Below are positions 501 through 35,740 of a stretch of DNA of 39,787 nt, piece by piece. Position numbers and translations under genes: made by a program. This DNA comes from a virus. The stretch spans positions 1 through 39,787 of the IMG/VR virus record IMGVR_UViG_3300007539_000054; one strand, 5' to 3'. The notes beneath the pieces are model-generated. The model was given only the letters and a program-made list of their open reading frames with translations. It had not been told where the DNA came from and did not search any database. The number at the start of each line of letters is the position of its first letter. Position 1 is the first letter of the stretch.

Positions 501-3500
501 TATCGCTCCATCATTATCCAGCCTTGAGTAGCATTATAATATACTAATCCAAAAGCTGCTCTATCTACATCTACTGTTAAATCAGAAGCACTACCTTCTA
601 TATTATGTCCGTTTCGCGCTACTGTAATATTATTTGTTGCCGCATTTCCTGTGCCATCAATAATTCTTATTTCATCTCCTAAAGCTGCCGTTGCAGGAAG
701 TGTAACTGTTACTGCAGTTGAAGTGTCTACAATTAATTTATCTCCAGCTACCGCAGTATATGCTGCTGTTTTTTCTGCCCAAGTACTACTACTTCCTCCG
801 CCAGAAGGGTTAGTTTTTACCCACTGACTTGAAGAACCGTCGTTTACATAAACGTATAAGAAAAGATCATCGTCATCAAACCATAGGTCACCAGCCGAAG
901 GAGAAGTAGGAGCAGAGCCAGATACAGTTACAGAAGCACCCCCACTGGAACTTCCGGAGCTTCCAGAGCCCGAAGGGTTAGTTTGTACCCATTGACTAGA
1001 GTCTCCATCATTGTAGTATACATATAGCACAAGACCTGTAGAGTCAAACCAAAGATCACCAGCAGAAGGGCTAGTAGGAGCCGCGTCGGAAACTGTTACA
1101 GAGGCTCCACCCCCGCCTCCGCTTGATTGTGCTACCCAATCATAATCTGTACCGTTCCAGCTTAGTACTTCGCCACTAGATGCAGTGCTTGTATTTAAAT
1201 GTGTATCAACACTTGAATCATTATAGCTCCCTGTGGCAGTTAGCTCTTGTTGAACAAATGCAGTAGTAGCAATTTGAGTAGTATTTGTACCACTTGTAGC
1301 AGTTGGTGCAGTTGGTGTTCCTGTCAAAGCTGGATCAGCTAAAGGTGCTTTCAATGCTATGCTATTAGTTACAGTTGTAGAAAAGTTTACATCGTCACCT
1401 AAAGCTGCTGCAAGCTCATTTAGAGTATCTAAAGTGCTTGGTGCTGAATCTACAAGGTTTGCAACTTCTGTATCTACATATGACTTGTTTGCAAGCTCTA
1501 CCCAGTTTCCTGCATGAGCAAAATATCCAGCGCCTGTAGCATGAACGTGTGCAAACATACCATGATAAGTTGTTGCACTCGGTAAGTCGCTTGTAGTTGC
1601 AAACATATTTGCATAGTATGACTTACCTGTAGTAATAAAGTCACTACTACCAATATCTATGTCACCAGAAATTCCATATCCTGATAAAGTAGTAGGCGTA
1701 TTGATTAAATCCGCAAATGCTGTAGATTTTCTAAAAGTATTCTTACTATCCGCTACCTGAAGAGCGGTAGAAGATACAGCCACCCCTGCAAATACATCCG
1801 TAGCTGTAGCTGCAACTGTGCCATCATCTTGCACGTAGTAATCGCCATTTAATGTTAAACCTGTATATACATCGGCTATGCCACCTGCAAGTATAACATT
1901 AACAGAAGCCCCACTTGAAACAGTAGATTCTGCGACACCAAGCCAACTGTCCGAGTTAGAAACCGAGTCAAGACGTACTAAAGCTCCTGAGGTGCCCGCC
2001 ACTAGGAACAGGCCGTAACCATCTTTATTTTGGTGTGCACCAGGATTTGTGCCTGCACTACTACCGCTACCAAAGCCGGTATATCCACTATTTCTTGTAA
2101 ATGTACCCGCGCTTGTTAAAGTTCCAAGGCCATGTTTTAAGCTATAGCTTTGATATGTTTGATAAACTGCATAAATAGCTAAACCAGTGTCCGAGCTAGA
2201 AAATTGCCAATGTCTACTCGTTAAGCCTCTTCCTGAAACCCAGCCCGTAGCTATATCGTTTAGCGCTGTAAGAGTTGTCCCGTTAAATGATAGAGGTTTA
2301 ATATGTATCTCTACTTGAGGATTAATATCTCCGAACCCTCTACCTCTATCCAGTACAAATAAACCAGAACCTCCGTGGTAGTATATATTGTTATAGGTAT
2401 TAGCGGTACTTACAGAAAGAGCTGTATTCATGCTAACTGTAGTGCCGGAAATAGTACCTGTAGCATACTCTACAGTTGAACCATAAGGATCTGCAACTAC
2501 AATTTTATTTTGAACGTAGAAAATATCAGAAGGTACGCTGGTAAACCCAGTTATTTGATCATAAGTGCCAATAGTTATACTTGTACCACTAATTGAAAGG
2601 GCAGCTACTTGTATGTCCCCGTTAAAATCTTCTATAAGTAGTAAAGGAGTATTGCTCGGGCCCAGAGTTATGTCTCTTACAGTATCTCCAAAACTAACAG
2701 TAGTTGCTGTATTTGCTGTCCAAATTCCAGAAGATTGAGAGACAATACGTAGCTGATACCCACTACTAGTATAGTAAACTAGAACACCCTGGCTTGTTCC
2801 TGTCAAGTGTACATACTTTACGATTGCTCCCGCAGAAACACTTTGAGCTATAGTAGTTTCTGTGCTGCTTGTAATAGTTAAATTTGCAAAATCAGGAGTA
2901 AGTATATCTACTTTAATTTCTGAACCACTTCTAAAAAAGTAGTAGTATAAACTATTGTAGTCATCATAACCGATTGATGTTTGGTTTGCAGTGCTTGACT
3001 GGTAGGTAGTAAAACTACCTACAGCAGCAGCAGATAATCCTACCGAACTAACAGTACCAGCAGTATTTAAAACTACTGCGTCACCTTCAGTAATTGCGGT
3101 AGCAGAAGTATAACTCTTTTGTGAGTCTCCACCAGTAGTGCTAAACCCTGCTATTTCACCTTGTACGAATGCAGTAGTAGCAAGCTGAGTAGTGCTTGTA
3201 CCGCTTGCTGCAGTCGGAGCAGTCGGAGTGCCTGTAAATGCTGGAGAGGCCGTAGAAACAGCATCTGTAATTCCATACCCTGCAATAGTAGTGGGAGTGC
3301 CTGTTAAAGAACTAAATGCTCCATCAAATGCATCTGTAATTCCATACCCTGCAATAGTAGTAGGAGTACTGCTAATATTTGAAAAACTTAGGTCAGCAGG
3401 AGTAAAAGAAAATACACCATTTGTATTATTATAAGTAAGAGCACCTGCGCCAGATGCTGAAGTAGTGCTAATACTAAAACTATTTAGGCTTGCATTACCA

Positions 3501-5599
3501 AAGCTCGAGGTGTCAGCAGGGGTAAAAGTAAATTGTCCTGTACTACTGTTGTACCCTAATGCACCTTGGCCTGATGCAGTATTTGTAGAAACACTTAGGT
3601 CTGTAAGTTGTATTCCACTACTCGCAGTAACAGCATTTTGAACGAATGCAGTAGTAGCAATTTGAGTAGTGCTTGTCCCCCCGCCTGCTGTTGGTGCTGT
3701 AGGAGTTCCGGTAAATGCTGGGCTCGCTAGTGGAGCTGCGTCTGTTATACCGTATCCTGCGATAGTAGTGGGTTTACCTGTTAAAGAACTAAAGGCTCCA
3801 TCAAATGTACTATAATCTGTTCCGGCAATTGCAGCAGTTATATTTCCATTTCCGTCTGCTTTTACAATTCCTGTAATTGCACCAACAACCGGGTCAGTTT
3901 CTGTAGTGAGGGCGCTGCTTAAGTCTGGCGGGGTATAAGTAAATACACCGCTTGTGTTATTATATGAAAGAGAGCCTCCTCCTGATGCAGTATTTGAGGT
4001 TACACTAAAGCTACTTAGACTTGCATTACCAAGCCCACTAATTTCACTCTGTACGTAAGCTGTAGTAGCAATTTGAGTGCTATTAGTTCCACTTGAAGCA
4101 GTAGGGGCTGTTGGAGTGCCTGTAAGGCCCGGGCTTGCCAAAGGCGCTTTTGCTGCTAAACTATTTGTAACTGTGCTTGCAAAATTAGCATCATCATTTA
4201 GTGCTGCAGCAAGCTCATCAAGCGTGTCTAAACTAGTAGGTGCTGAGCTTACAAGATTTGCGATTTCAGTGTCAACATATGAAGTAGTTGCAAAGCTAGA
4301 AGTGTCAGCAGGAGTAAAAGTAAATTGGCCAGTACTACTATTATAGCTAAGCCCTCCTGTGCCTGAGGAAGAGCTCGCAGTAGTTGCAGAAAAATCAGAG
4401 AGTTCTGTCTTTTTAATATTAAGTAAATAAGTGTCAAGATTTGAGGTTGTAAATAACATTACCTCAGTAGCACTTATAGCTGTACCAATTTTTAATGAAG
4501 TAGAAGTTTTAGTCTGTACGAGAGTACCATCGTCCTCTGCAAAAACAGAACCGCCATCCGTCAGTCCTGCAAACCCAGAAACTTCTCCGTGTATTCTAAC
4601 AGATACGGAAGCAGTGTCAGCAGCCCCCGCAAGTGCTATACCTACAAAATTAAGATTTGATACAGAGCTAGAAATTGTGGAAACAGTGCCATCAGAGTTT
4701 ATTGCTACCGGATCTCTGGCGCTAATTGTCCCACTCGCTGTAAAAGATTGATCAAGAGGCTCTACTAACGATAGCTGTGCAAATCTCTTGTCAACAGTAG
4801 TAGATGCAATATTTAATGGAAGCACGTTTTCTTGGTCGCCAATAGCAGTATTTACAGGAACAACAAGAGTTGATCCGTCTGCTGAAATTTGTGCATCTCC
4901 TACAAAAATTGTGTTTTCGCCTACATGAAGCTCTTCAATATATGCGAAGTCAAATCTATCAGCATCAGTGCCTAGACTTGAAGAAGAGCCTGCAGGTAAA
5001 ATAGTGTTTACATGAAGCTCATTAAAATACTCAGTGCTAGTGCCTAAGTCTGCTCCACCAGCAGCTGCAGGCTTCACATCGCCCGAAAGATTTTCTAGTT
5101 TATCGTGAACATACTCTACTGGAGCTAAATATTGATTTACTGGGTCCCATGTAGTAAAGTTGTAACTCGTTCCCGTTAAACGAGGATAGCCTGTAAATAA
5201 AGGGCTATTTAAATCAGCTTTCAAGTTAATTGAATTAGCTAATGCTTGGTTGCCTATAGTAGCACTATTTACTGTGCTAGTTATAGGACTTAAAAGATCA
5301 TTAACTGCAGTAACTGTTTGAAGCTGAGATGCACCAGTACCCCCAGGATTAGGAGCCGTAGGGGTACCAGTGAACGCAGGGCTAAAAGATTGAACAAAGT
5401 TTGAGTTGATATAAGATCTAATACTTGCATCAGTATTAGCTAAATCAGTCTCTACTTGAATTATACCTTCTTTTAGATTTATAAAGTTAGAGTCTACCTC
5501 AAAGACTGAAAGCGCCGTACCCTTTGCAGCAGCGGTAGTACCCCCCGTATAACTTTGGGGGGTATTCTTTGTAACAATAGTTATGGTGCTAGCAGTCAT
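500..5599 (-). CDS. Large tail fibre protein with repeats and an inserted propeller-like domain
   Basis: A protein of 1699 residues, starting at ATG 5599 (MTASTITIVTK) with a weak ribosome site. Units of the form GTPTAP...TTQIATTAFVQ recur near residues 75, 490, 625, 800 and 1425; these match the phage tail fibre repeat family (Phage_fiber_2 type). TIAGYGITDA-like linkers recur between them. Residues about 290-385 form a beta module (DPVAINSDGTVS ... AEDDGTL ... GTAISATEV). A second copy of that module begins near 835 but is split by some 370 residues of repeated strands resembling a beta-propeller, then resumes near 1220 (WLGVAESTVSSG). Two 56-residue ASVTVS...SQWV units lie near 1490-1600, and a compact C-terminal domain ends in GWIMMER. 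The role is host recognition at the tail tip. Function is inferred from the repeat family and position. Confidence 0.85.
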   Translation of the reverse strand: MTASTITIVTKNTPQSYTGGTTAAAKGTALSVFEVDSNFINLKEGIIQVETDLANTDASIRSYINSNFVQSFSPAFTGTPTAPNPGGTGASQLQTVTAVNDLLSPITSTVNSATIGNQALANSINLKADLNSPLFTGYPRLTGTSYNFTTWDPVNQYLAPVEYVHDKLENLSGDVKPAAAGGADLGTSTEYFNELHVNTILPAGSSSSLGTDADRFDFAYIEELHVGENTIFVGDAQISADGSTLVVPVNTAIGDQENVLPLNIASTTVDKRFAQLSLVEPLDQSFTASGTISARDPVAINSDGTVSTISSSVSNLNFVGIALAGAADTASVSVRIHGEVSGFAGLTDGGSVFAEDDGTLVQTKTSTSLKIGTAISATEVMLFTTSNLDTYLLNIKKTELSDFSATTASSSSGTGGLSYNSSTGQFTFTPADTSSFATTSYVDTEIANLVSSAPTSLDTLDELAAALNDDANFASTVTNSLAAKAPLASPGLTGTPTAPTASSGTNSTQIATTAYVQSEISGLGNASLSSFSVTSNTASGGGSLSYNNTSGVFTYTPPDLSSALTTETDPVVGAITGIVKADGNGNITAAIAGTDYSTFDGAFSSLTGKPTTIAGYGITDAAPLASPAFTGTPTAPTAGGGTSTTQIATTAFVQNAVTASSGIQLTDLSVSTNTASGQGALGYNSSTGQFTFTPADTSSFGNASLNSFSISTTSASGAGALTYNNTNGVFSFTPADLSFSNISSTPTTIAGYGITDAFDGAFSSLTGTPTTIAGYGITDAVSTASPAFTGTPTAPTAASGTSTTQLATTAFVQGEIAGFSTTGGDSQKSYTSATAITEGDAVVLNTAGTVSSVGLSAAAVGSFTTYQSSTANQTSIGYDDYNSLYYYFFRSGSEIKVDILTPDFANLTITSSTETTIAQSVSAGAIVKYVHLTGTSQGVLVYYTSSGYQLRIVSQSSGIWTANTATTVSFGDTVRDITLGPSNTPLLLIEDFNGDIQVAALSISGTSITIGTYDQITGFTSVPSDIFYVQNKIVVADPYGSTVEYATGTISGTTVSMNTALSVSTANTYNNIYYHGGSGLFVLDRGRGFGDINPQVEIHIKPLSFNGTTLTALNDIATGWVSGRGLTSRHWQFSSSDTGLAIYAVYQTYQSYSLKHGLGTLTSAGTFTRNSGYTGFGSGSSAGTNPGAHQNKDGYGLFLVAGTSGALVRLDSVSNSDSWLGVAESTVSSGASVNVILAGGIADVYTGLTLNGDYYVQDDGTVAATATDVFAGVAVSSTALQVADSKNTFRKSTAFADLINTPTTLSGYGISGDIDIGSSDFITTGKSYYANMFATTSDLPSATTYHGMFAHVHATGAGYFAHAGNWVELANKSYVDTEVANLVDSAPSTLDTLNELAAALGDDVNFSTTVTNSIALKAPLADPALTGTPTAPTATSGTNTTQIATTAFVQQELTATGSYNDSSVDTHLNTSTASSGEVLSWNGTDYDWVAQSSGGGGGASVTVSDAAPTSPSAGDLWFDSTGLVLYVYYNDGDSSQWVQTNPSGSGSSGSSSGGASVTVSGSAPTSPSAGDLWFDDDDLFLYVYVNDGSSSQWVKTNPSGGGSSSTWAEKTAAYTAVAGDKLIVDTSTAVTVTLPATAALGDEIRIIDGTGNAATNNITVARNGHNIEGSASDLTVDVDRAAFGLVYYNATQGWIMMER
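799..1118 (-). repeat. Tandem duplication of a 168-bp fibre unit
   Basis: Two head-to-tail copies of a unit of about 168 bp (56 codons) lie inside the large fibre gene. Anchor positions 805 and 973 (aagggttagttt) are exactly 168 bases apart. Each encodes ASVTVS..APTSPSAGDLWF, then a Tyr-Val strand, NDG, SSQWV and a Gly/Ser-rich linker. The copies differ mostly at silent or conservative positions, so this is a duplication that has had time to drift. Confidence 0.8.
1131..1174 (-). repeat. 44-bp exact match to the other fibre gene (copy 1)
   Basis: These 44 bases, beginning gctacccaatcataatctgt, are identical to 11726-11769 in the separate fibre gene at 10903-14700. Both encode GEVLSWNGTDYDWVA. 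The identity at third codon positions suggests recent exchange between the two fibre genes. Confidence 0.85.
1244..5390 (-). repeat. Dispersed tail-fibre repeats (GTPTAP...IATTAFVQ)
   Basis: Copies at roughly 1245-1330, 3160-3245, 3640-3725 and 4060-4145, and a shorter one near 5335-5385, encode FTGTPTAPTA..GT.TTQIATTAFVQ. At DNA level they share the string gtagtagcaatttgagt with small changes. They match the phage tail fibre repeat that builds trimeric fibre shafts, and they mark recombination-prone positions inside the gene. Confidence 0.8.
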
Positions 5600-5615
5600 T
5601 TGTAGTCTCTACTAT

Positions 5616-7037
5616 TTAGGTTTGGTCAGATAATTGTACAGACCAAGTGATTTGCAGGGTATCAAGGGGTGCTTTAGTAACAACATCAAAAGTTGTACGA
5701 CAAAGCATTGTCTGGTCAATGATACCGCCACGAGGGCTTCCAGCCTTCCAAAGATTTACTTGGCCCCCGCCCGCTACATCTACTAGAGGCCCGTCTGCAT
5801 TTGCAGCATTATAGCCTGCATCTGTACCGTCTAATCCAGTAGCCGCGTAGTTAGTAGTAGTATCAAAAGTTCCGTGGGCTTCGGGACTATTGAAGATACC
5901 CGCTTCACGAACCAAAGTATTGGTAGATACTCCGGGGTTATTTTCCTTAAATGTAGCAATAAAGATAACTCTGTCGCCCATTTTCTTTTTACCACGTTGA
6001 GCATCCGGAGCTTGGCCAGCAGGCAAAGGGTATGTGGGGGTAGCAGATGCATTATAGTCATTCTCATCTGTACGATAGCCCTCTGTATCTGTACCAGAAT
6101 CTTCTACAATACTTGAAAGCACTCGAGTACCTTGGAAGACGCCATCTACATCAGTACCAAACTGCTCAAAATCACTTGAAGGTCGATCTTCAAACTCACC
6201 AAAAAATGGTGCAAGCGAGGCATTTGTAGCTGCATCAGGAACAGCAGTTTGAGTGTCATAATAACCACCAACTTGGCCCCTAATACGATTTTTATAATCA
6301 GTGACCAGCAAGCCAGCCGAATTATATGTAGAAGAGAAAGGGTGTCCTGAAGATGCAATTACATCAGTATATTGAAACTCCACCGTGGTAGTAGAGCCTG
6401 TAATTGTTCCAAGAGTTGCTTCAGCATTTCCAGTAGTTGCATTAACAAGATTTACAGTGGTAACACCAGTTGCTGTATCATTTACAATAGTACCGATTTC
6501 TGTGTTCGCAGAAAAAGTAGAGCTGAGAGTTCCATTAGGATCTACTTTCATTCCAGTACGTAAAGTTTGGCTAGTAGTAGAGCTAGTTGCAATTTTGAAG
6601 AAAGTGTCTCCAGCACTTGCAATAGCATTAACAGTTGTACCCCCACTGTCCGTAAATGTAGCAGGAACTGTAAAGCCAAAAACAGGGTAGTCATCAGTAC
6701 GTGAAGTATCCTTCATTACTTGTACTCGATCACCTACTTCACCCTGCAAGAATCGGTTAGTTTGAGTTGCAGCTACTACGGTAGAAGTATTTGCAGTTGT
6801 TTGAGCAGGGTCTCCCACTCCGATAGCCATATGGCTCATCATTCGAGGAATGATATGCTTTTTATTAATATCAAGACCTCGACGGTCTTGGCCGGTATCA
6901 ATCATTCGCCCAATAATATGAGCAATACCATAATCTGTTACAGCGTTACGAATAGTTTTATGCTGCTTGACTCGGCCATGTTGATCTCGGAGTACGAGAT
7001 TGACAATACCTTTAATTCTAGCATCATCTTTTAACAT
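5616..7037 (-). CDS. Putative tail fibre or tail-tip accessory protein, 473 aa
   Basis: The start at ATG 7037 is supported by AAGGAG seven bases upstream; the TAA of the gene before it overlaps this ribosome site (TAAGGAG). The N-terminus (KGIVNLVLRDQHGRVKQHKT, then NAVTDYGIAHIIGRM) resembles the opening of virion proteins that attach to tails or baseplates: a beta strand pair with an Asp-Gly turn, then a helix. The rest is rich in Thr, Ser, Gly and Asp, with VGDPAQTTANTSTV and a C-terminal beta section ending LQITWSVQLSDQT. There is no signal peptide, membrane segment or enzyme motif. It lies between a 1060-residue virion protein and the large fibre gene, so it probably joins or decorates the fibre complex. 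I do not recognise a named family with certainty. Confidence 0.6.
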   Translation of the reverse strand: MLKDDARIKGIVNLVLRDQHGRVKQHKTIRNAVTDYGIAHIIGRMIDTGQDRRGLDINKKHIIPRMMSHMAIGVGDPAQTTANTSTVVAATQTNRFLQGEVGDRVQVMKDTSRTDDYPVFGFTVPATFTDSGGTTVNAIASAGDTFFKIATSSTTSQTLRTGMKVDPNGTLSSTFSANTEIGTIVNDTATGVTTVNLVNATTGNAEATLGTITGSTTTVEFQYTDVIASSGHPFSSTYNSAGLLVTDYKNRIRGQVGGYYDTQTAVPDAATNASLAPFFGEFEDRPSSDFEQFGTDVDGVFQGTRVLSSIVEDSGTDTEGYRTDENDYNASATPTYPLPAGQAPDAQRGKKKMGDRVIFIATFKENNPGVSTNTLVREAGIFNSPEAHGTFDTTTNYAATGLDGTDAGYNAANADGPLVDVAGGGQVNLWKAGSPRGGIIDQTMLCRTTFDVVTKAPLDTLQITWSVQLSDQT

Positions 7038-24300: not shown

Positions 24301-25876
24301 CGGTCTCCGCAGCGTCTGATACTACTTCTTCTAGTGCTTTGGTTTCTGCAGATTTAAAATAATTAAAAACAGCTTTTATGCCTTCATAAAGCATTGCCAT
24401 TACAGAAATAGCAATACCCACAGGGCCCAACAATAACGATACTGCTGCTCCTGCTAGTCGGAAAGCTCCAGCTGCTAACATAGCAGCAATTCTTGCATAT
24501 CCCATAGCTGTAGCTAAAAGAGTTGTTTGTAGTCTTGCGACGCCTACTGCTGTTGAGTACCCTTGTACCGTAACTTTTAATTGCTCTTTAGCTAATTTAT
24601 AGTTGCCCGAAGCTAAAGCTGCAAACATTGTAGCTTGAGCATCTTGAGTAGTTGCTAAAGTACTCGCAAGCTGAGCCTTTCTAACTTCTGCTACAACTTG
24701 CCCAGATACTTTCTTTCGTCTAGCATACTCAGCTTCTCCCTCAGCACCTTGCTTTAGAAGTTTTGCATTACTAACCATTGACATTTCTTGGCCTCTGATT
24801 GCGGCGTCAAAATCTTCTGTGGCTTGAGTGCCGTCTGCTAATTTGGCTGTTAGATTAGTAAGGCTCCCGGAGGATCGATTCATTGAGTCCAAACTTTCAA
24901 TATTTGACGCCGCAAGCTGCCTTTGGAACCCTGCCGCATCCGCAGCTCCTTCAGCATACTCCGATAAACTTCCTAGAAGTTTGCCTGAAATTGTAGAGCC
25001 AAATAAAAGAACTGCACCAACAAGTAAGCCAGTATTTTCAAGCAGTAGTGTAAGAAAAGGAATAACTCCAGTATTTACGATACTTAAAAAAGCCTTGGAA
25101 ACATCAGCAAAAGCTGCCGCAAGTTTATCAAACGGATTTGCATCTACGTCTGAAATTGCACCAAACTTCTGAGTTGCTTCATCTAGGGTCGCATTGGCGA
25201 ACGCCTGACGCTTTTCAAAGCTAGTAAGCTGCTCTACACCTTTACCTAGCTGTTTTGCATATTGATCGTATGCCTCATCTAGTTTTACAAAAATACCTAA
25301 TTCGTCAAGTAGTTCTGGTTCTAGTTTTGTAACACCGCGAGTAAAGCGTTCTAGAGAATCCTGAGTGTTTCTGCCCAGAGCAATGGAAGCATTTTTTGCA
25401 GCTATACCAAACTCTTCTATCATACTAGAGTCTAGCCCGGCACTTGTAATCATTGCCGTAGACCTCATAGCTTCTTCTAAACTGAGTGCGTGTCCTGTAG
25501 CTTCCTGTAATCCTTTAGACAATGTTCCCATTGCAAGACCTGATGCAGCTCCCAGAGTTGATAATCCTTCCGTAAGCTGCTCTACCTGGGCAGCTCTACG
25601 TAATACTCCGAAAGCAGCTGACAAAGCAAATACGTTTGCAGCAAGAGTTGCGTAGGCAGGTACCAAACCTCCTCCCATTGCTTGCTGCATCTTACTGAAT
25701 GCTTTTGTGCTATTGGAAGTCGCTCCCGCGACACCCTTTTCGCCTCGCTGGTATCTATTTCGTGAATTTGTAAGTTGATCCGTCGAGTCAGCGGCCTGTT
25801 TGGCTTTCTTGGCAACGATAGAAAGATCGCCATTGTCGTCGATACTTACTTTAATCTTAACTTCGTTTTGGGCCAC
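21311..25876 (-). CDS. Tail tape measure protein, 1521 aa
   Basis: GTG at 25876 overlaps the end of chaperone T by 20 bases; the ribosome site is weak, so translation may be coupled. The N-terminus is amphipathic (VSIDDNGDLSIVAKKAKQAA), followed by VPAYATLAANVFALSAAFGV and two hydrophobic stretches at about 270-295 (PFLTLLLENTGLLVGAVLLF) and 450-510 (LLATAMGYARIAAMLAAGAF onward). From about 510 to 1230 it is a long, charged, Ala/Glu/Lys-rich coiled coil; the end holds another hydrophobic helix and a Gly-rich domain. This order is typical of siphovirus tape measures, which set tail length and reach the host membrane at DNA entry. At about 0.15 nm per residue the tail would be near 230 nm, an estimate from the family rule. 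Confidence 0.93.
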   Translation of the reverse strand: MAQNEVKIKVSIDDNGDLSIVAKKAKQAADSTDQLTNSRNRYQRGEKGVAGATSNSTKAFSKMQQAMGGGLVPAYATLAANVFALSAAFGVLRRAAQVEQLTEGLSTLGAASGLAMGTLSKGLQEATGHALSLEEAMRSTAMITSAGLDSSMIEEFGIAAKNASIALGRNTQDSLERFTRGVTKLEPELLDELGIFVKLDEAYDQYAKQLGKGVEQLTSFEKRQAFANATLDEATQKFGAISDVDANPFDKLAAAFADVSKAFLSIVNTGVIPFLTLLLENTGLLVGAVLLFGSTISGKLLGSLSEYAEGAADAAGFQRQLAASNIESLDSMNRSSGSLTNLTAKLADGTQATEDFDAAIRGQEMSMVSNAKLLKQGAEGEAEYARRKKVSGQVVAEVRKAQLASTLATTQDAQATMFAALASGNYKLAKEQLKVTVQGYSTAVGVARLQTTLLATAMGYARIAAMLAAGAFRLAGAAVSLLLGPVGIAISVMAMLYEGIKAVFNYFKSAETKALEEVVSDAAETAKELDKNFREINLALQGNSKIINSVTQRYKAFGNATSQVLQVLDKMEATQASGSAQEQVDFLNERIKGSKELQGLLAKEGISKVSTANLETAKTVLQEIVTQGQQTASVEEALKNVNDETTKYFNTLSKTTPIDGMTDGLKSLMNALAGTDDIAEITKIIDEGIGSSGRLREMLDAAEGSTDKERLANLTETLAAEQERLRNAKNIIQSKTLEVKRLKAVNDLSEEGVRALIAAEQEVRDAKISQIDTQLTFLNQQKAAAKDADQRKEIEVEINRLTGERKVLVAEELSVAQQNLQVGTQRHKNLQELQKTQKMILDFAAKELALLQAKQGLELASARRAIELKAATQQRSVSAAEEADLAATEAANLKATEEERIRLRTATINMEYALLESQFELEALRIATLKESNQITEAQFNKLMGAKGEGGKPGSGLMGAMQGLEGQRSAAIEVATGEERAKTADAALAATQAQTAAITEAQQAALSYVNQYTAQLRENGEYDRALSLEKVTNEAEIARLKDLQAKTDDPVARLEIQRQLNDLTQKNVALERERLGLNPNESAAIAEAEGRIAILREQGRIQDAIAAQRLLNEEAITRLETERESAVTTPERRLEIEKEIAALRQGNIGLTQENIGIAGETAIRLGAPEGMTNAMTGIAQDQADPAGVMNQGTTAEKFAFLKEQTAGFMSDLAQLSPEGALMSAIGQGALQMGEAFSNVFAEMKEGSLSAETAIGAIGATISAIGAMQQAKANAAVSAIDKEIAAEKKKDGKSKESIAKIKALEAKKDKIKRKAFEQDKKMKMAGIIMATAQAAMQAASAPPGLPWTAPMVAMAIAMGAAQLAAVASTSYQGGGSVAGEGSAGPTKITVGERRTTTDLAKSQGAAGEIAYFRGARGIGGPENFRPAAGGMKYRANGGNTAFMVGEQGPEMFVPERPGTIVPADEVSEMGVPINANINITALDADGVEDILMNQRGNIISMLRDAANANGETFLESVSVQEY

Positions 25877-26279
25877 TTGTTTTTCTCTTTAGCTTATCAC
25901 GCTCCTTTTTTAATTCATCGGAGGATTTTTTGATAGCTCTTGAATCAAGAAAGTTTAGTACTTGGACTAAAAGTTCTTGATTATCAACTTCGAATACTTC
26001 TGCTAGGTACTTTAGGTTTGAGTAGTCTTTACCAACATACCCTATATCTGGATAAACTCTATCCCCTAAAACATTAAAAATAGATATTGCATCTAATATT
26101 TCTTCTGGAAAATCTTCCCAACCAGGAGGAATTTCATCTTCTATTGGCTCATTTCCCAGTTGTTCCATCATCTCAAAATAACGATCTTTCGTCATTTTAG
26201 ATTCTAAATTATTATACAGCTTCCCCAGTCTCTCCAGTAGTATTTCCATCTCTTTCTGTACGAAAGTTATCGAGATCAA
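25857..26279 (-). CDS. Tail assembly chaperone T part, made as a G-T frameshift fusion
   Basis: This frame opens only after a TAG at 26283-26285, and its first possible start (TTG at 26279) has no ribosome site. It overlaps the G gene by 68 bases and lies +1 (equal to -2) relative to it. Such an overlapping frame just before the tape measure is the standard layout of tail assembly chaperones, where a few percent of ribosomes shift frame to make G-T. T is acidic to mixed and ends in a Lys-rich helix (DELKKERDKLKRKTSGPKRS). With a shift at the GGGG at 26223-26226 the fusion would have about 265 residues. G-T binds the tape measure during tube assembly. The frame arrangement is seen directly; the mechanism is from the family. 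Confidence 0.75.
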   Translation of the reverse strand: MISITFVQKEMEILLERLGKLYNNLESKMTKDRYFEMMEQLGNEPIEDEIPPGWEDFPEEILDAISIFNVLGDRVYPDIGYVGKDYSNLKYLAEVFEVDNQELLVQVLNFLDSRAIKKSSDELKKERDKLKRKTSGPKRS

Positions 26280-26655
26280 AGACTACCTCATTGAGCCATG
26301 TGTCGAATTCAGTTGAGGATGAAACAAGAACTTCTGCATTTTCAGCGGTATAAGGGAGCTCTTGGCTCATATCTTTACCTTCAGTATCAATAAGAATAAG
26401 GGTTTCCAAATTCTCAAGAGTTAAGCCTTCCCAGCCTTTAATAACTGCAGCGCTAAACTCTACTACAAACTTATCTTCATCTAATGTTTCCATTACTTGA
26501 CGTGTCTTTCGATCAAACTTTTGAACTGTGCAACGCTTTCGAAGATTCGTAAGCTCTTTACGAGAAAGATTTGCAACCTTGACCTTAAAGCCAGAAAGTC
26601 CAGGAAAATCTACCCAGACTTCTTTTACGTCGACCATTAATTTTCTTAATTCCAT
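26212..26655 (-). CDS. Tail assembly chaperone G
   Basis: I place the start at ATG 26655 because AAGGAG lies eight bases upstream; the longer GTG frame at 26664 would overlap that ribosome site. The 147-residue product (MELRKLMVDVKEVWVDFPG ...) has the pattern of tail assembly chaperones: a short beta N-terminus, SRKELTNLRKRC, then FSAAVIKGWEGLT, LPYTAENA and FDTWLNEVV. It lies between the tail-tube genes and the tape measure, its usual place, and ends in a run overlapping the T frame. It acts in the cytoplasm of the infected cell and is not expected in the virion. Confidence 0.85.
   Translation of the reverse strand: MELRKLMVDVKEVWVDFPGLSGFKVKVANLSRKELTNLRKRCTVQKFDRKTRQVMETLDEDKFVVEFSAAVIKGWEGLTLENLETLILIDTEGKDMSQELPYTAENAEVLVSSSTEFDTWLNEVVFDLDNFRTERDGNTTGETGEAV
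26223..26226 (-). other. Proposed frameshift site (GGG-G) for G-T
   Basis: In the G frame the codons read ACT GGG GAA GCT GTA TAA; in the T frame CTG GGG AAG. A glycine tRNA on GGG can move one base and still pair with GGG, giving a +1 shift four codons before the G stop. The overlap where a shift can occur is only about 70 bases, and this is the best run in it. A -2 shift is possible on the same geometry. Confidence 0.5.
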
Positions 26656-26667
26656 TAAAACCACTCC

Positions 26668-28986: not shown

Positions 28987-29820
28987 TTAGTAATGAACCT
29001 GTATCAGAATTTCTCCTACTCCATACGGCTCAAGAACTCCTTCGTCAGTCTCTATACTGACAATTTTAATATCATGAGTTTTTTGTGCGAGACCTTGCTT
29101 ATCAGTATAAGATAACGCACCATTTTCATCTAAAACTGTTTCTACGTCTTCAATTAATTTATCTAATGCTATTACGGCATCTTCTTCTTGAACGTAGCAA
29201 CGTAGTGTTACACTGAGGTATCGGTCTCTATATCCTGCGCCTTGATACTCTCGTGTTTCTGATCCCGCGTTAATGTGTATTGCAGGAAATTCTTCAATTT
29301 CATCCCAAAATTTGAGTCGAGGGTGAACATTGTCAAATACATCTGTAAGGAAGTCTCCGCTTCCATTAATTTTTTTCATTTCTCTAACTAATGCTTCTAC
29401 TATTGAAGAGCGTCTAGTTGTATGAGGCCTTCCAACAAATAGTCTAGTAGTTCCACTACTTGAAGAAGACGCTGGAGGGGCTGCAGCAATTGTAAAACTA
29501 GAGGTTGCTACAACAGTACCCGTAGCACTTCCACTTCTAATTGTTAAGTTTCCTTGTGTAGCGGTACTTGAAACAGCAGTTAAAGTAAAAGAACCTGTAT
29601 TTGATGTTATAGTAACTTGTCCCGAAGCAACATTTGTTGTTTGAAAACTGGTGGTTGGAGTAGCCGCCCAATATAAAATTGTTCCATCTGCAACATTTGT
29701 TGTTGTTATTGTAACAGTTGTTGATGTTCCTACCGTTAGAGTAGTACTAGGTAAAGAAATAGAATAACTTGGAGGTACTGTATTATACTGCTGATAGGCC
29801 ATTCTGTTGGGGCCTCCCAT
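28987..29820 (-). CDS. Ig-like domain plus tail terminator protein, 277 aa
   Basis: ATG at 29820 has an excellent ribosome site, GGAGGT at 29827-29832, seven bases upstream, so it can be made on its own. Residues about 18-112 are an Ig-like domain (SLPSTTLTVGTSTTVTITT, NVADGTILYWAAT), followed by a Ser-rich linker. Residues about 136-277 match tail terminator proteins, which cap the tube and join it to the head: SSIVEALVREMKKING, VHPRLKFWDEIEEFPAIHIN, then RYLSVTLRCYVQEEDAV and a final strand set. The gene lies between neck and tube genes as expected. The frame is also continuous upstream, through one TAG, with the subtilase gene. A tail terminator normally starts near the second domain; the Ig part is an addition. 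Confidence 0.75.
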   Translation of the reverse strand: MGGPNRMAYQQYNTVPPSYSISLPSTTLTVGTSTTVTITTTNVADGTILYWAATPTTSFQTTNVASGQVTITSNTGSFTLTAVSSTATQGNLTIRSGSATGTVVATSSFTIAAAPPASSSSSGTTRLFVGRPHTTRRSSIVEALVREMKKINGSGDFLTDVFDNVHPRLKFWDEIEEFPAIHINAGSETREYQGAGYRDRYLSVTLRCYVQEEDAVIALDKLIEDVETVLDENGALSYTDKQGLAQKTHDIKIVSIETDEGVLEPYGVGEILIQVHY

Positions 29821-29982
29821 CAGACCACCTCCAGCAGCGGGCAGGTGGCTTCTCCACCCTAAGTTTGTTACTCCAAATGCAGAAATTCCATCTATGTAAG
29901 CAGGGTCGTCTGGGTACCCCTCTTGAATAGCGTCTTCTATAGCAGCGTTATTAGACGAAGTTTCTACAAAAGTTTTTAACTA
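29821..29982 (-). other. In-frame amber codon and 53-codon bridge between subtilase and tail terminator
   Basis: The only stop between the subtilase frame and the terminator frame is TAG at 29980-29982. It falls in the sequence KNPGLTPA-TAG-LKTFVE; the usual subtilase form here is LTPAQ(L/V)K, so glutamine (CAG to TAG, one base) is the expected residue. After TAG, 53 codons without a stop lead to the ATG at 29820, and the frame is unchanged through 28987. The total open length, ignoring TAG, is 880 codons. Confidence 0.85.
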
Positions 29983-31629
29983 TGCCGGAGTTAGTCCGGG
30001 ATTTTTTTCTAAAATACAAGATAAAATTCCTGTAACTCCAGGAGCCGCCATTGAAGTACCACTTAATTTAAGTAACCCTTCTGTAGCGTCTAGGGGGTGC
30101 GTTATCTCTGTAGCACCCTGAGTAATCATTTTATTTTCTGCAAATGTTTGAGCTGGGTTCGTATGCTCATAAGGGCCATTTCTGCTGGAGGCTCCTAGTA
30201 TGTGAGATCCGGGGTGCCACAATGAAACTCCCGGGCCTCTCCCAGAATCAGAGGCTATACCTATCTTTTTAGGCCCTGAAGGCGCTCCTGTATCTCCTAC
30301 TTGAAAAGTATTTCTGTAATCTATATTTAGATTACCAACTATAAAAGCTTCGGGATGGTGTACTCCGCCTCTGTGCAGATAGTGAGTGCCTGAAGCTAAA
30401 CCAGTCCAAGGAGTTCCTGGCGCAGGGCTAGGTGTTGCAAGAGTAATTGTATTATTCCAATCGACATGAGTATCATGTGCAATATACTCATTGCTATTAC
30501 CTGCTGATATAACTACATGGACTCCTTCATCAATTAACTCCTCTATATCTGCTACAATAGAGGCTGAGTACGCGGGAATCTTACAAGTGTTGTAAGAATA
30601 GTTGGTGCCCCCTGAAACTGCATCATTAGTATTTATAAAAGAGTAAGAAATTCCATAACGTAGATTTCTATGGGTATGATCCTGCTCTACATCATTATTT
30701 GGTCGTAAATCTGCTGCCGAAGAGTATACACTACCTCTATAATTAACTGAACTAATATAGTCAGACCTGATTGTATAAGTAGAGCCCCAGCTCATATTTA
30801 CAATAGTAGGACGCTTATTTCCATTGGAGTCTACAGCTTTATTCCTATGAAATATTTTTATTTGATCGAAACAATCTGTATAAGCAGTATAATCTTCTAA
30901 GCCTCCGTATCCTGCTCCCATAGCTCCGAATTGAAGCTTTTGAGCATAAATTTGGGCTCCTCTAGCGTAGCCCATACTTTTACCAGCGGCAGTACTTGCT
31001 ACATGAGTTCCGTGACCATCCCAATCTCTGTAGTAATCATTAAGGTTAGAAGGGCTTGTACCTATTCCAGTTGTAGTTGCCCAATCAATTTTATTAACTC
31101 TACTTATGCCATTTGCATCTTGAAACTCATAGTGATCTGCATCTATTCCGGTATCTTGAATAACTATATCTACGCCTTCGCCGTCAGCACCATAAGCATA
31201 AACACCAGTGTATGTATTAGTAAAGCTGCCATCGGATTGTACATTCCAAGGCTCTGCTTTATTTGTTATCCCTCCTGATTGAGGAAACTGCCAAGGGTAC
31301 CCTTCCCCTGCACTAAATTCTGCTATCTGTCCGATCTTTCTGTAAGTTCTTTGAGGGTCCGCTCCTACACCTGAAGGGCCTATTTCTATATCAGGATTTT
31401 GCCAATATGGAATTTCAACTGCGAGTACGTCTGGATGAAGCCGCAAAACATTTGCCTCTAGCTGAGTCAAATAATAATTAGCTTGCCTAGTACTAGCAGG
31501 CCTTTCATTTGCTACTTCTACTTGGCGATTAGGAATTCCATCCCTGCCCTGAAAGTCAAGCATTCGTTCATGAAATTGATGAAAATCAACTCCTTTATTG
31601 AGAACGACTATATACTCTTTTTCAGACAC
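29980..31629 (-). CDS. Subtilisin-family (S8) serine protease with I9-like propeptide, 549 aa, ends at amber
   Basis: The start is GTG 31629, directly after the TAA of the neck gene (TAAGTG), with GGAG seven bases upstream. Residues about 5-75 (YIVVLNKGVDFHQFHERM, then LRLHPDVLAVE) match the I9 propeptide that chaperones and inhibits subtilases. The catalytic set is complete: D159 (IQDTGID), H206 (DGHGTHVAS), oxyanion N378 (ISAGNSN) and S526 (LSGTSMAAPGV). There is no signal peptide, so it should act in the cell or the virion, not by standard export. It lies among head-tail joining genes. It ends at TAG inside the usual last helix of the fold, and the frame continues beyond it. Protease activity is well supported by residues; substrate and timing are unknown. 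Confidence 0.9.
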   Translation of the reverse strand: MSEKEYIVVLNKGVDFHQFHERMLDFQGRDGIPNRQVEVANERPASTRQANYYLTQLEANVLRLHPDVLAVEIPYWQNPDIEIGPSGVGADPQRTYRKIGQIAEFSAGEGYPWQFPQSGGITNKAEPWNVQSDGSFTNTYTGVYAYGADGEGVDIVIQDTGIDADHYEFQDANGISRVNKIDWATTTGIGTSPSNLNDYYRDWDGHGTHVASTAAGKSMGYARGAQIYAQKLQFGAMGAGYGGLEDYTAYTDCFDQIKIFHRNKAVDSNGNKRPTIVNMSWGSTYTIRSDYISSVNYRGSVYSSAADLRPNNDVEQDHTHRNLRYGISYSFINTNDAVSGGTNYSYNTCKIPAYSASIVADIEELIDEGVHVVISAGNSNEYIAHDTHVDWNNTITLATPSPAPGTPWTGLASGTHYLHRGGVHHPEAFIVGNLNIDYRNTFQVGDTGAPSGPKKIGIASDSGRGPGVSLWHPGSHILGASSRNGPYEHTNPAQTFAENKMITQGATEITHPLDATEGLLKLSGTSMAAPGVTGILSCILEKNPGLTPA

Positions 31630-33051
31630 TTACACTCTCCTAGTATAAAATCTTCCAATAGCGAACTGAACTGCTATCTGTCTAATTGATTTATCAATTA
31701 ACTTTCTAGGATCTCGATCTACACTACCTTGACGATTTCCCTGCTCAAATGTTTCATATGGATTTCTTTGATATGTATAACCTATACTTGGAAATCCTTG
31801 TGCAGTTTGAGTAATGTCTGTTACTCTAACACTGCTTGCAAATCTTCCTGTTTGATACTGTAGTGCAGGAGGTATCATATTTTTAGCAACTACTCCAGGC
31901 AGCTGTTGATTAAAGATACCTATGTAACTTGCTATAGAATAAGGCGATTTTTGCGTTTTAGCAGCAGGCAGTTTTGTTTTTGGTACCCTAGCCTTTCCTA
32001 AAGTTGCTCTCGTAGTTTTCTTCACTTTAGAGCTATTTTTAGAATTACTTCCTCTTCTTGAGTTTTCTATTTTGGGCTCTTTTGAAGTAGTAATGCCCTT
32101 TTTCTTTCTAAATTCTTTTAGTACTGCTTTTGTTGCTTTTTTCTGAAATCTTTGCGTAGGACTATCAGATCCCTTTAATCCAGCAATTGGTTGCTTACTA
32201 TTTAAGCGCTCAATTCCTGCACGAAGTTGAGCCATAAATTCGTTTTTTTGCTTTGCACTCTCAAATCCAGCATTTCGATTATCCATTAAGCTTTGGGCAG
32301 TAAAAGTAAAGCTTTCTGTAGAATCATCTCTTACAAGTGTTAAATCAATTCCTAGTGCCTCTAGGTTAGACATTAACACTTCTCGACTAGCTTTTGAAGT
32401 ATAGTTTTTATTTATGGCAGTATCAATTGCATCTGCAATTCGACTTTCTAAAATTCCGGCACCTTCCATGTGCCCGCCCTCAACAAGATCTGTACCTTTG
32501 GTTATTTCTGTTTGGCCTTCTTTCATACGATCGTATTGTACAAATCGCATTTGTTCTTTATCGAAGTGCCCACTAACAGCTTTATTTAATCTTCGACCAT
32601 ATTGTTGTTTTAAAAACTCGTTAAGACCAAGTACAAAAGTGTTTAACTCTTCTGTGTACAAATTTTTTAACTTACTAAAATTATCAAAGTTAGGGTTCTG
32701 GTTTGGCGTCGCTTTAGGATTTGCAGTTTCTAATAAAGTTACTTTGATAAAATGCTGATTTGAAACTATCCTAACATCTCTCGTCTTTTTAAAAGTTTTA
32801 GACTGTGTTCTACACGCCTCTAGTATATTATTCGCACCTTTCTCTACATACTTTTTAACCTCTTCTCTTCCAAAAAGATTAAGAATGTCTCTATGCTCGA
32901 ATTCTTTTTCTATTTCTTCTACAAATAGTCTAGGGAGAAAGACAAAATGATTTGTTCGTCTATCTGCAGTATGCTTCCTGTACTCTTTGCTGTTTCTTAA
33001 TAGGTCTTTTTCCAGATCAATTAAAAAAGCCTGTAAACTAGCGCGAGACAT
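31630..33051 (-). CDS. Neck protein with HK97 gp10-like C-terminal domain, 473 aa
   Basis: ATG at 33051 shares a base with the stop before it (TAATG). The C-terminal 130 residues (IASYIGIFNQQLPGVVAKNM, ALQYQTGRFASSVRV, GYTYQRNPYETFEQ, PRKLIDKSIRQIA) match the pattern of head-closure/tail-completion proteins of the HK97 gp10 type, in which a short R.GRFASS motif recurs. Residues 1-285 are an unusual addition, helical and charged; residues about 285-360 are a Lys/Arg/Ser-rich linker. Normal members have about 110-160 residues, so this is roughly three times longer. Its place between the connector and tail terminator genes agrees with the neck. The function of the long N-terminal part is not known. 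Confidence 0.65.
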   Translation of the reverse strand: MSRASLQAFLIDLEKDLLRNSKEYRKHTADRRTNHFVFLPRLFVEEIEKEFEHRDILNLFGREEVKKYVEKGANNILEACRTQSKTFKKTRDVRIVSNQHFIKVTLLETANPKATPNQNPNFDNFSKLKNLYTEELNTFVLGLNEFLKQQYGRRLNKAVSGHFDKEQMRFVQYDRMKEGQTEITKGTDLVEGGHMEGAGILESRIADAIDTAINKNYTSKASREVLMSNLEALGIDLTLVRDDSTESFTFTAQSLMDNRNAGFESAKQKNEFMAQLRAGIERLNSKQPIAGLKGSDSPTQRFQKKATKAVLKEFRKKKGITTSKEPKIENSRRGSNSKNSSKVKKTTRATLGKARVPKTKLPAAKTQKSPYSIASYIGIFNQQLPGVVAKNMIPPALQYQTGRFASSVRVTDITQTAQGFPSIGYTYQRNPYETFEQGNRQGSVDRDPRKLIDKSIRQIAVQFAIGRFYTRRV

Positions 33052-33679: not shown

Positions 33680-35131
33680 TTATGCGTAGTCGAGCTTAAC
33701 AGCAGCAGCCTTACCAGCTACAGAGTCAAACAACTCGTCAAATCCAAGGTGTTGAGTACCAACAATGAGGCGTCGCTGTGCAGCAACTTCATAATCAGTC
33801 TCTACTGATACGCCACGGAGACGCGGCATAATAAAGTTAGCAGTGTTTACAGCGATAACACCAGCGTTCTCACCAGCAACAGTAGTAGCCGAAGGAGCTA
33901 CGAAGTTGTCAGAGATAACTACGGGTGAGCCGTAAACTGCACCAACTTGACCAGTCAGCTTCAGAGCGCGGTCTGAACCGACTTCGAAGACGTTGTCAAA
34001 CTCAGGATCATTAATCAGATCATGATACGCATCTTGTGATACGATGTAAACAATGTCTTGTGGCATGAGGCCATATACACCCATTGACTTACGGAGAGAT
34101 ACAAGATCAACCGCAGCAATAGTTGCAACAGAACCGGCAGCAGCAAACTTGTTACTAGCACCAGCACCTGAGTTACCGCCAGCAATCGCCATAGCGTCGA
34201 GACCAGCGATACCTGCACCATTACCATTCAAGATTGCCTTATCAACAGCGCGAGCGTGTGAACGTGCAATACCTTGAGTCAGCATAGGCATAAGATTTAC
34301 AAGGACTTCCTCGTCGATGTAGTTGTCCATGTAAGTAGTAGAAATCAAACGATCTACAGTCAGGATCTTCTGCTTTGCATTGTAGGTACCTGCAACGTCA
34401 TCGGTACCTTCACGATTAGCAATACCTGTGCCGCCAGCAGCCTTAGAAGCGTTAGCATCTTCGCCGCCAGTTGACCAAGTTGCAGTGTTAACATCTGTTT
34501 GCAGAGGAATAACAGTAGACTTAGAATTTACAGTCATCTCACGGAACAGATTTGCAACACGCAACTCAAGCTCGATTTCCTTCTCAATTTGAGTAGAAAC
34601 CTCTTGAGCGATATCAGGAGCATTTGAAGCGCCTGTGTAAGCGATACCAGCTTTCTCAAATACAGATTTAGCATAGTCAGTATCAAAGCCCTTCTGAGTC
34701 ATAACGCCCAGGAGGTGTGCATACATAAGCTCTTTGTTGCCCTTGATGTTAGCGCCACCTTCACGATCAGCGAATACACGCTTTGACTCGCGAATCTTGG
34801 TGAGCTCTTCGTTCTTCTCTTGAAGTTGTGCTTGGAAAGATGCAATGACTTCTTCAATCTTTGCGTCCTTCTCAGCCAGCTTAGACTCGATGTCTGCCAT
34901 CAGGCGATCAGCACCTGACTCAACACCTACACGAATAGCTGATTGAACTTCTTCTTCTTGAGCAGCCTTCTCAGCAGCTTCTTGAGCCGCCTTCTCTTCT
35001 GCTTCTTGAGCTGCCTTCTCTTCGGCAGCTTTTTGCTCGGCTTGCTTCATTGCAATCTTAGCAGCAGTCTCTTCTGCTACTTTCTTCGCAAAAGCTTCCA
35101 AGTCGACTTCGGGAGTTTGTACTTCCGACAT
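33680..35131 (-). CDS. Likely internal-start product: scaffold-capsid without protease, 483 aa
   Basis: In frame with the fusion, ATG at 35131 (M204, MSEVQTPEVDLEAFAKKV) has AAGGAG at 35138-35143 with a six-base gap. This ribosome site is far better than the one at the fusion start (AAGGA only three bases from ATG). The product would begin at the scaffold and contain the full capsid, comparable with HK97 gp5. A virion needs hundreds of capsid subunits but few protease subunits, and such a start would set that ratio. There is comparable nested use in lambda C/Nu3. The site is seen directly; use of it is inference. Confidence 0.6.
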   Translation of the reverse strand: MSEVQTPEVDLEAFAKKVAEETAAKIAMKQAEQKAAEEKAAQEAEEKAAQEAAEKAAQEEEVQSAIRVGVESGADRLMADIESKLAEKDAKIEEVIASFQAQLQEKNEELTKIRESKRVFADREGGANIKGNKELMYAHLLGVMTQKGFDTDYAKSVFEKAGIAYTGASNAPDIAQEVSTQIEKEIELELRVANLFREMTVNSKSTVIPLQTDVNTATWSTGGEDANASKAAGGTGIANREGTDDVAGTYNAKQKILTVDRLISTTYMDNYIDEEVLVNLMPMLTQGIARSHARAVDKAILNGNGAGIAGLDAMAIAGGNSGAGASNKFAAAGSVATIAAVDLVSLRKSMGVYGLMPQDIVYIVSQDAYHDLINDPEFDNVFEVGSDRALKLTGQVGAVYGSPVVISDNFVAPSATTVAGENAGVIAVNTANFIMPRLRGVSVETDYEVAAQRRLIVGTQHLGFDELFDSVAGKAAAVKLDYA

Positions 35132-35740
35132 AATGATCTCCTTGTCGGCGGATTTTTCCGCTTCGTCCGGTGTTTCACTAGCTACCGATGAATTTTCATC
35201 CTTAGCCAGAGACTGACCGGCTAGATCTACACGATTGGTGAAAGTTTTCTTGAACTCATTGTACTCTTCAATAGAGTCAAATGATTTCGCCAGAGAAAAA
35301 GTTGCTGCTTGATTGCAAGGTACCGATACTACCGATACTTCAAACAACTCAGCATCCTTAATCTTTAATCCGTCAGTTTCCGCTAGATAATCAGCATCCT
35401 TGACTCGGAAACCAACAGAAAAAGCTCCAAGAATGCCTTCTTTTACTAATTGCGCCACAGAATCTGGTGCAGATTTAGAAATTTTAGCCTTTAGTTCAAG
35501 ACCGTTTTCAGTGACTTTTAGTCCTGTAGCGCGTCCGATTGGCTTGTTATAGTCATGATTAAAAAGAATAATAGGATTCTTTTCAAAATTGTTCAGACCA
35601 CCCTTTGTCCATGCCTCCGCATCAATAGTATCGCCAGCACGATCAAAATCAGTTGTGCTAGCCATTCCGCAGATATGAACTCCTCCATCGTCTTCATCTA
35701 GAGTTTTGAAGGTAGAGGTAAGATTGAAAATCTTTTCCAT
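33680..35740 (-). CDS. Prohead protease-scaffold-major capsid fusion, 686 aa
   Basis: ATG at 35740 overlaps the previous stop (TAATG). Residues 1-160 are an HK97-type (S78) prohead protease: H62 in FNHDYNKPIG, S108 in GAFSVGFR, and an acidic residue in ELFEVSVVSVPCN (E131 or E134). Residues about 160-320 are a scaffold-like delta domain: a Glu-rich stretch, then AAEEKAAQEA repeats and a coiled coil (EKDAKIEEVIASFQAQLQEK). From about 335 onward is an HK97-fold capsid (FREMTVNSKSTVIPLQTDV ... LRGVSVETDYEVAAQRRLIV). In HK97 these are gp4 and gp5; here one frame encodes all three. The protease is expected to cut itself and the scaffold away during maturation. A strong internal start at 35131 may supply excess capsid without protease. 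Confidence 0.9.
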   Translation of the reverse strand: MEKIFNLTSTFKTLDEDDGGVHICGMASTTDFDRAGDTIDAEAWTKGGLNNFEKNPIILFNHDYNKPIGRATGLKVTENGLELKAKISKSAPDSVAQLVKEGILGAFSVGFRVKDADYLAETDGLKIKDAELFEVSVVSVPCNQAATFSLAKSFDSIEEYNEFKKTFTNRVDLAGQSLAKDENSSVASETPDEAEKSADKEIIMSEVQTPEVDLEAFAKKVAEETAAKIAMKQAEQKAAEEKAAQEAEEKAAQEAAEKAAQEEEVQSAIRVGVESGADRLMADIESKLAEKDAKIEEVIASFQAQLQEKNEELTKIRESKRVFADREGGANIKGNKELMYAHLLGVMTQKGFDTDYAKSVFEKAGIAYTGASNAPDIAQEVSTQIEKEIELELRVANLFREMTVNSKSTVIPLQTDVNTATWSTGGEDANASKAAGGTGIANREGTDDVAGTYNAKQKILTVDRLISTTYMDNYIDEEVLVNLMPMLTQGIARSHARAVDKAILNGNGAGIAGLDAMAIAGGNSGAGASNKFAAAGSVATIAAVDLVSLRKSMGVYGLMPQDIVYIVSQDAYHDLINDPEFDNVFEVGSDRALKLTGQVGAVYGSPVVISDNFVAPSATTVAGENAGVIAVNTANFIMPRLRGVSVETDYEVAAQRRLIVGTQHLGFDELFDSVAGKAAAVKLDYA
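34950..35065 (-). repeat. Short tandem repeats coding the scaffold Ala/Glu helix
   Basis: Repeated gcttcttgagc(c/t)gccttctc strings encode EEKAAQEAEEKAAQEAAEKAAQ, an imperfect repeat of about eight codons in the scaffold segment of the capsid fusion. It is likely a slippage-made, length-variable coiled coil. Confidence 0.7.

Follow-up and report, generated by a model that had tools for sequence, protein, structure and literature searches.

A subtilase-Ig cassette in frame with a T5-type tail-terminator gene, and a private amber codon within its protease domain

The closest described counterpart of the terminator studied here is p142 of phage T5 (PF23818; PDB 8bcp/8bcu), a 161-residue stand-alone protein that ends the tail tube as a hexamer, and that stays monomeric when tagged at its N-terminus and forms fibres when tagged at its C-terminus (PMC11784142). 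Subtilases associated with virions have been described in marine T4-like phages (PHROG 9158 / Peptidase_S8; Synechococcus phages and relatives), where they are encoded as separate genes. A single stop between two in-frame virion domains is found in the A1 readthrough protein of Q-beta; there, the leaky stop closes a complete protein and is a permanent part of the gene.

We analyzed a 39,787-base record, probably a fragment, of a marine virus of bacteria (hereafter “the window”, i.e., the whole stretch of DNA at its full length), in which a subtilase, an Ig-like domain, and a tail terminator share one reading frame interrupted by a single TAG. The likeness to T5 p142 lies in the C-terminal 147 residues, by both profile and fold, and in the gene order beside head-completion, p143-like, and major tail genes; unlike the stand-alone T5 protein, the window terminator is preceded by ~730 additional N-terminal residues, and a hexamer is predicted for the fusion. 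The protease belongs to the same S8 family as the marine T4-like phage subtilases (identity up to 41%) and shares their catalytic residues, and some of these enzymes also carry similar Ig repeats (~45%) after the protease, but they are not joined to a terminator. The window stop, in contrast to that of Q-beta A1, is not conserved and cuts a domain. The fusion cassette, rather than the stop, is the part worth following: it would place an enzyme, probably as six tethered copies, at the siphophage neck, a place not usually tied to host-surface digestion. A literature search of incomplete coverage found no paper pairing “tail terminator” with “subtilase”.

We consider it very likely that this gene is a natural in-frame fusion that carries a private nonsense mutation or base error, with no evolved readthrough system. 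Specifically, a T5-type tail-terminator gene would have received a subtilase-Ig-linker cassette in frame at its 5' end, ordinary translation would yield a terminator carrying a protease, and the fusion would form the terminator hexamer, a ring at the head-proximal end of the tail, so that up to six proteases would be held at the neck by Ig/linker tethers. The TAG, located within the protease domain, would be either a nonsense mutation or a base error private to the window record; if real, it would result in a truncated, probably inactive protease, and the terminator would be obtained only via weak internal initiation or leaky reading. Given that an N-terminal tag left T5 p142 monomeric, the bulky N-terminus of the fusion could affect assembly. 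The protease may also cleave its own terminator free of the fusion. By analogy with baseplate-associated relatives, our guess for the protease substrate is a host-surface or capsule protein.

Layout and genomic neighborhood of the fusion gene

The window genes lie on the minus strand and are arranged as in a long-tailed phage, in the order portal, fused protease-capsid, head completion, p143-like neck protein, subtilase-terminator gene, and major tail protein. Beyond these come a baseplate tube-like protein, the tail chaperones, and, where a tape measure would be expected, a very long gene. The terminator sits between the neck/completion gene and the major tail gene, i.e., where a terminator is expected, and the upstream neck gene (31630–33051, minus strand) shows a weak match to the T5 p143 tail completion protein, in an order kept in cassette-free relatives.

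The subtilase-Ig-tail-terminator gene (28987–31629, minus strand) runs from a GTG at 31629 to a TAA at 28987, and the first-pass annotation had described it as one frame crossing a single amber codon. This description holds, with the TAG at 29982 to 29980 the sole in-frame stop over 880 codons. The open frame is not a product of chance, since the other five frames contain 16–28 stops in the ~330 codons after the TAG and homologues share the same layout. Pfam profiles identified Peptidase_S8 (E 5e-27) and Phage_tail_terminator_7 (PF23818; 116.8 bits vs a cut-off of 27, E about 1e-34 to 9e-34) in this one frame. A structure model of the fusion, of moderate quality (mean pLDDT 66, with low confidence for residues 559–618), suggests a propeptide-like fold at residues 1–72, an S8 core from ~150 to 617, an Ig-like beta-sandwich between protease and terminator at ~620–716, and the terminator at 738–880. 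In Foldseek comparisons, the terminator part matched T5 p142 (8bcu_A, E 3e-12, TM 0.77 by target length) and the protease part resembled proteinase K-like enzymes.

Within the gene, all on the minus strand, the GTG start (31627–31629) has AGGAG upstream and occupies the same place as the starts of stand-alone terminators; the left end of the cassette coincides with this codon or falls slightly upstream. Residues 1–72 (31414–31629) may constitute a subtilase propeptide, based on a beta-alpha-beta fold order in the model like that of the I9 propeptide; Pfam returned no I9 match to this stretch. The Peptidase_S8 part before the stop (29983–31182), located by Pfam profile and homologue alignment, is followed by the C-terminal remainder of the protease (residues 551–617, 29779–29979), which is lost if translation ends at the TAG. 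Next come the Ig-like domain (residues 620–716, 29482–29772), a Pro/Ser-rich linker (29431–29481) that is disordered in the model and marks the right end of the cassette, and the T5 p142-type tail terminator including its stop codon (28987–29430). The tether varies in length among fusions, the Ig-like domain being single in the window and in its relative L001 and double in two other relatives, L002 (fusion at 3001–5955) and L003.

Other genes in the neighborhood show features of their own. The prohead protease (Peptidase_S78) and major capsid protein form one 686-aa gene (33680–35740, minus strand), and two tail-chaperone open reading frames (ORFs; 25857–26279 and 26212–26664, minus strand) overlap. 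A −1 frameshift site in this overlap was rejected, as the slippery heptamer is absent. The second chaperone gene in the records of L001 and L002 aligns from 26195, so that the TTG start listed for the second ORF is probably wrong, and the two are probably ordinary genes.

The amber codon among relatives and within the protease fold

In scans of IMG/VR, this architecture recurred in three contigs: L001, at 92% identity in protein, and L002/L003, at 77%; L002 and L003 represent the same protein from two records, so that two lineages are counted besides the window. All three encode the fusion as a single uninterrupted ORF of 884 or 985 codons, which corroborates the physical link between protease and terminator first proposed from the window. 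A stop conserved among close relatives was not observed: the codon at the amber site is CAG in L001 and CAA in L002/L003, and TAG in none of the three. A degenerate DNA search across the site, allowing either glutamine or a stop, recovered the three fusion contigs along with subtilases from different gene settings, the codon being CAG or CAA in every case, and degenerate searches at two sites revealed no fusion-bearing contig beyond the same three. A nucleotide-level search of phage DNA with the gene region gave no match, and one scan of species genomes found no prophage relatives. Among the sequences searched, from which records very close to the window may have been held back, the amber is thus private to the window record, and the CAG or CAA codons and unbroken frames of the relatives indicate that the fusion is the normal gene. 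The protease displayed a dN/dS of ~0.2 between the window and L002, with constraint along the length of the frame.

The amber codon (29980–29982, minus strand; residue 550) lies 24 residues beyond the catalytic Ser526, at the start of a helix spanning residues 548–558 in the model, where ~65 residues of the protease part remain beyond it. The initial view that a complete subtilase domain precedes the TAG is contradicted by this position: the stop falls inside the fold and truncates the 288-position S8 profile at position 263, and stand-alone subtilase homologues run some 40 or more residues beyond the corresponding point. The major product would therefore be a damaged rather than a complete protease, probably inactive or unstable. 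The active site is as expected for a subtilase (MEROPS S8), with Asp159, His206, Ser526, and the oxyanion Asn378 in order and identical in 22 of 22 homologues; the intact enzyme is a predicted protease. Glutamine is, as previously suggested, the usual residue at position 550 (Q in 17 and E in 5 of the 22 aligned homologues, a count that includes the window's own row with its TAG read as Q). Overall, the TAG is most likely a private nonsense mutation or base error, which the first-pass annotation had listed as the plain alternative to readthrough and which we retain as the best reading.

Mutation, base error, or readthrough

The best explanation has two branches, depending on whether the TAG is real. 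We assign about an even chance to a real nonsense mutation disabling a dispensable neck protease, with the terminator then made from ATG 29820 or ATG 29802. The cassette is absent from most relatives, which suggests that the protease is dispensable, both ATGs are preceded by Shine-Dalgarno (SD)-like sequences, and the terminator ring takes just six copies per virion (a hexamer; PMC11784142). The separate terminator start put forward in the first-pass annotation is only partly borne out, however. The GGAGGT is indeed present at 29832–29827, six bases ahead of ATG 29820, and of the starts tested this candidate (29818–29832, minus strand) pairs best at its SD sequence (−10.6 kcal/mol), but the start is buried in RNA structure: opening it would cost 24.9 kcal/mol, and opening ATG 29802 would cost 17.8, vs 2.1–9.8 kcal/mol for 19 other starts tested, all of these energies being rough thermodynamic estimates. 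In addition, ribosomes halting at the TAG would leave the stem closed. The buried arrangement at ATG 29820 is also found in L001 and, in weaker form, in L002. Because the sequence at this place encodes a GGPNR motif common to the fusions, the GGAGGT and ATG need not be a start at all. Finally, amino acid changes were not in significant excess on the window branch (9N:4S vs 4N:7S, p=0.22), i.e., pseudogene-like relaxation was not significant there, a pattern in keeping with a TAG that either arose recently or is spurious.

The second branch, to which we give a substantial but smaller share of our belief, is that the fusion gene is intact in the phage, the TAG being either a base error in the consensus or a minor sequence variant that the assembler selected. 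The TAG is the only lesion found in the window, where none of the other orthologues compared was broken, relatives carry intact copies, and the terminator is expected to be essential while its alternative start is poor. On the other hand, a single transition is a plausible mutation, the codon that follows carries a synonymous change in the window as well, and substitution errors are uncommon in deeply covered assemblies.

Programmed or suppressor-dependent readthrough of the TAG, leading to a small share of protease-tagged terminators, appears very unlikely. The frame is open on both sides of the TAG, readthrough yields minor virion proteins in other systems, and a signal of purifying selection continues past the stop in comparisons with both L001 and L002; however, this signal largely predates the stop and hence does not count in favor of readthrough. 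Evolved low-level readthrough, the central proposal of the initial reading, conflicts with a stop that is not conserved in relatives and that interrupts the protease fold. RNA structure over the 98 bases downstream of the stop does not exceed that of shuffled sequences (z about −1), the TAG is followed by U, which is a poor readthrough context, and the terminator would have to come mainly from the buried start.

We regard as very unlikely a scenario in which the phage tolerates a genuine amber codon, a near-cognate tRNA or host suppressor reads it at a low level and so sets a small dose of protease-bearing terminators, and the rest come from the internal start; if true, this would constitute a dosage switch on the neck protease. 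Two points weigh against the natural fusion with a private mutation or error: independent fusion lineages besides the window number only two, and a real TAG would make a protein that appears essential dependent on a poor internal start, so that a degree of suppression or readthrough could still occur. Reassignment of TAG to glutamine by the phage or its host (code 15) is extremely unlikely and was rejected on codon counts: glutamine is the relatives' residue at the amber site, but the window contains 1 in-frame TAG in 13,010 codons, compared to 160 CAG and 347 CAA, another of its ORFs terminates in TAG, and no tRNA was found in the window.

An exchangeable subtilase-Ig cassette

Sequence comparisons across relatives indicate that the subtilase-Ig block is a 2.2–2.5 kb exchangeable cassette that joins the terminator gene in frame at its 5' end. 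Most relatives encode a short terminator of ~150 aa at the same place, starting directly after the neck gene, and in cassette-free relatives this 154-aa terminator begins where the fusion starts. One pair of contigs differs by the cassette: L009 and L002 are 97.1% identical across 2,988 bp upstream and 97.3% identical across 630 bp downstream, and the 2.5 kb cassette is found in L002 only, where it replaces 18 bp of L009. The window cassette shares 92–98% DNA identity with that of L001, vs mostly 50–75% for the backbones, and dS between the two is ~0.08–0.17 in the cassette and 2.25 (saturated) in the terminator. The window backbone is instead nearest to the cassette-free L006, with 93% protein identity to its stand-alone 154-aa terminator and 95% in head completion. 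Taken together, an L001-like cassette on an L006-like backbone and the L009/L002 pair indicate that the subtilase-Ig block is transferred whole and becomes joined in frame to the N-terminal side of different terminators. The cassette passes between phages independently of the terminator it joins, and the L009/L002 pair makes its effect on host range or virion assembly directly testable.

A chimeric assembly is an unlikely source of the fusion, because the L001 and L002/L003 fusions sit on different backbones and the window cassette is only ~92% identical to that of L001 in protein. A subtilase was present in 4 of 23 virus records tested, most of them fragments, i.e., in the three fusion records and in L092, which had been chosen for its stand-alone subtilase. 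Among 170 terminator loci, many of which are repeats of the same contig, no other terminator had a long N-terminal extension. As a separate observation, the neck gene is a mosaic between the window (31630–33051) and L001 (1594–3000), with ~38% protein identity overall and nearly identical DNA across its last 15 or so codons, beside the left end of the cassette.

Based on sequence similarity, the likely source of the cassette is the subtilase family of marine T4-like phages. Members of this family in L101, L092, and L113 are separate genes located beside baseplate-wedge/tail-fibre connector genes, and L113 has a tandem pair of subtilase genes (1981–3996 and 4001–5590) in this setting. In L100, L103, L110, L114, L138, and L163, the subtilase contains an additional segment of at least 100 residues, which separates the C-terminal protease motif from the region that follows the serine helix.
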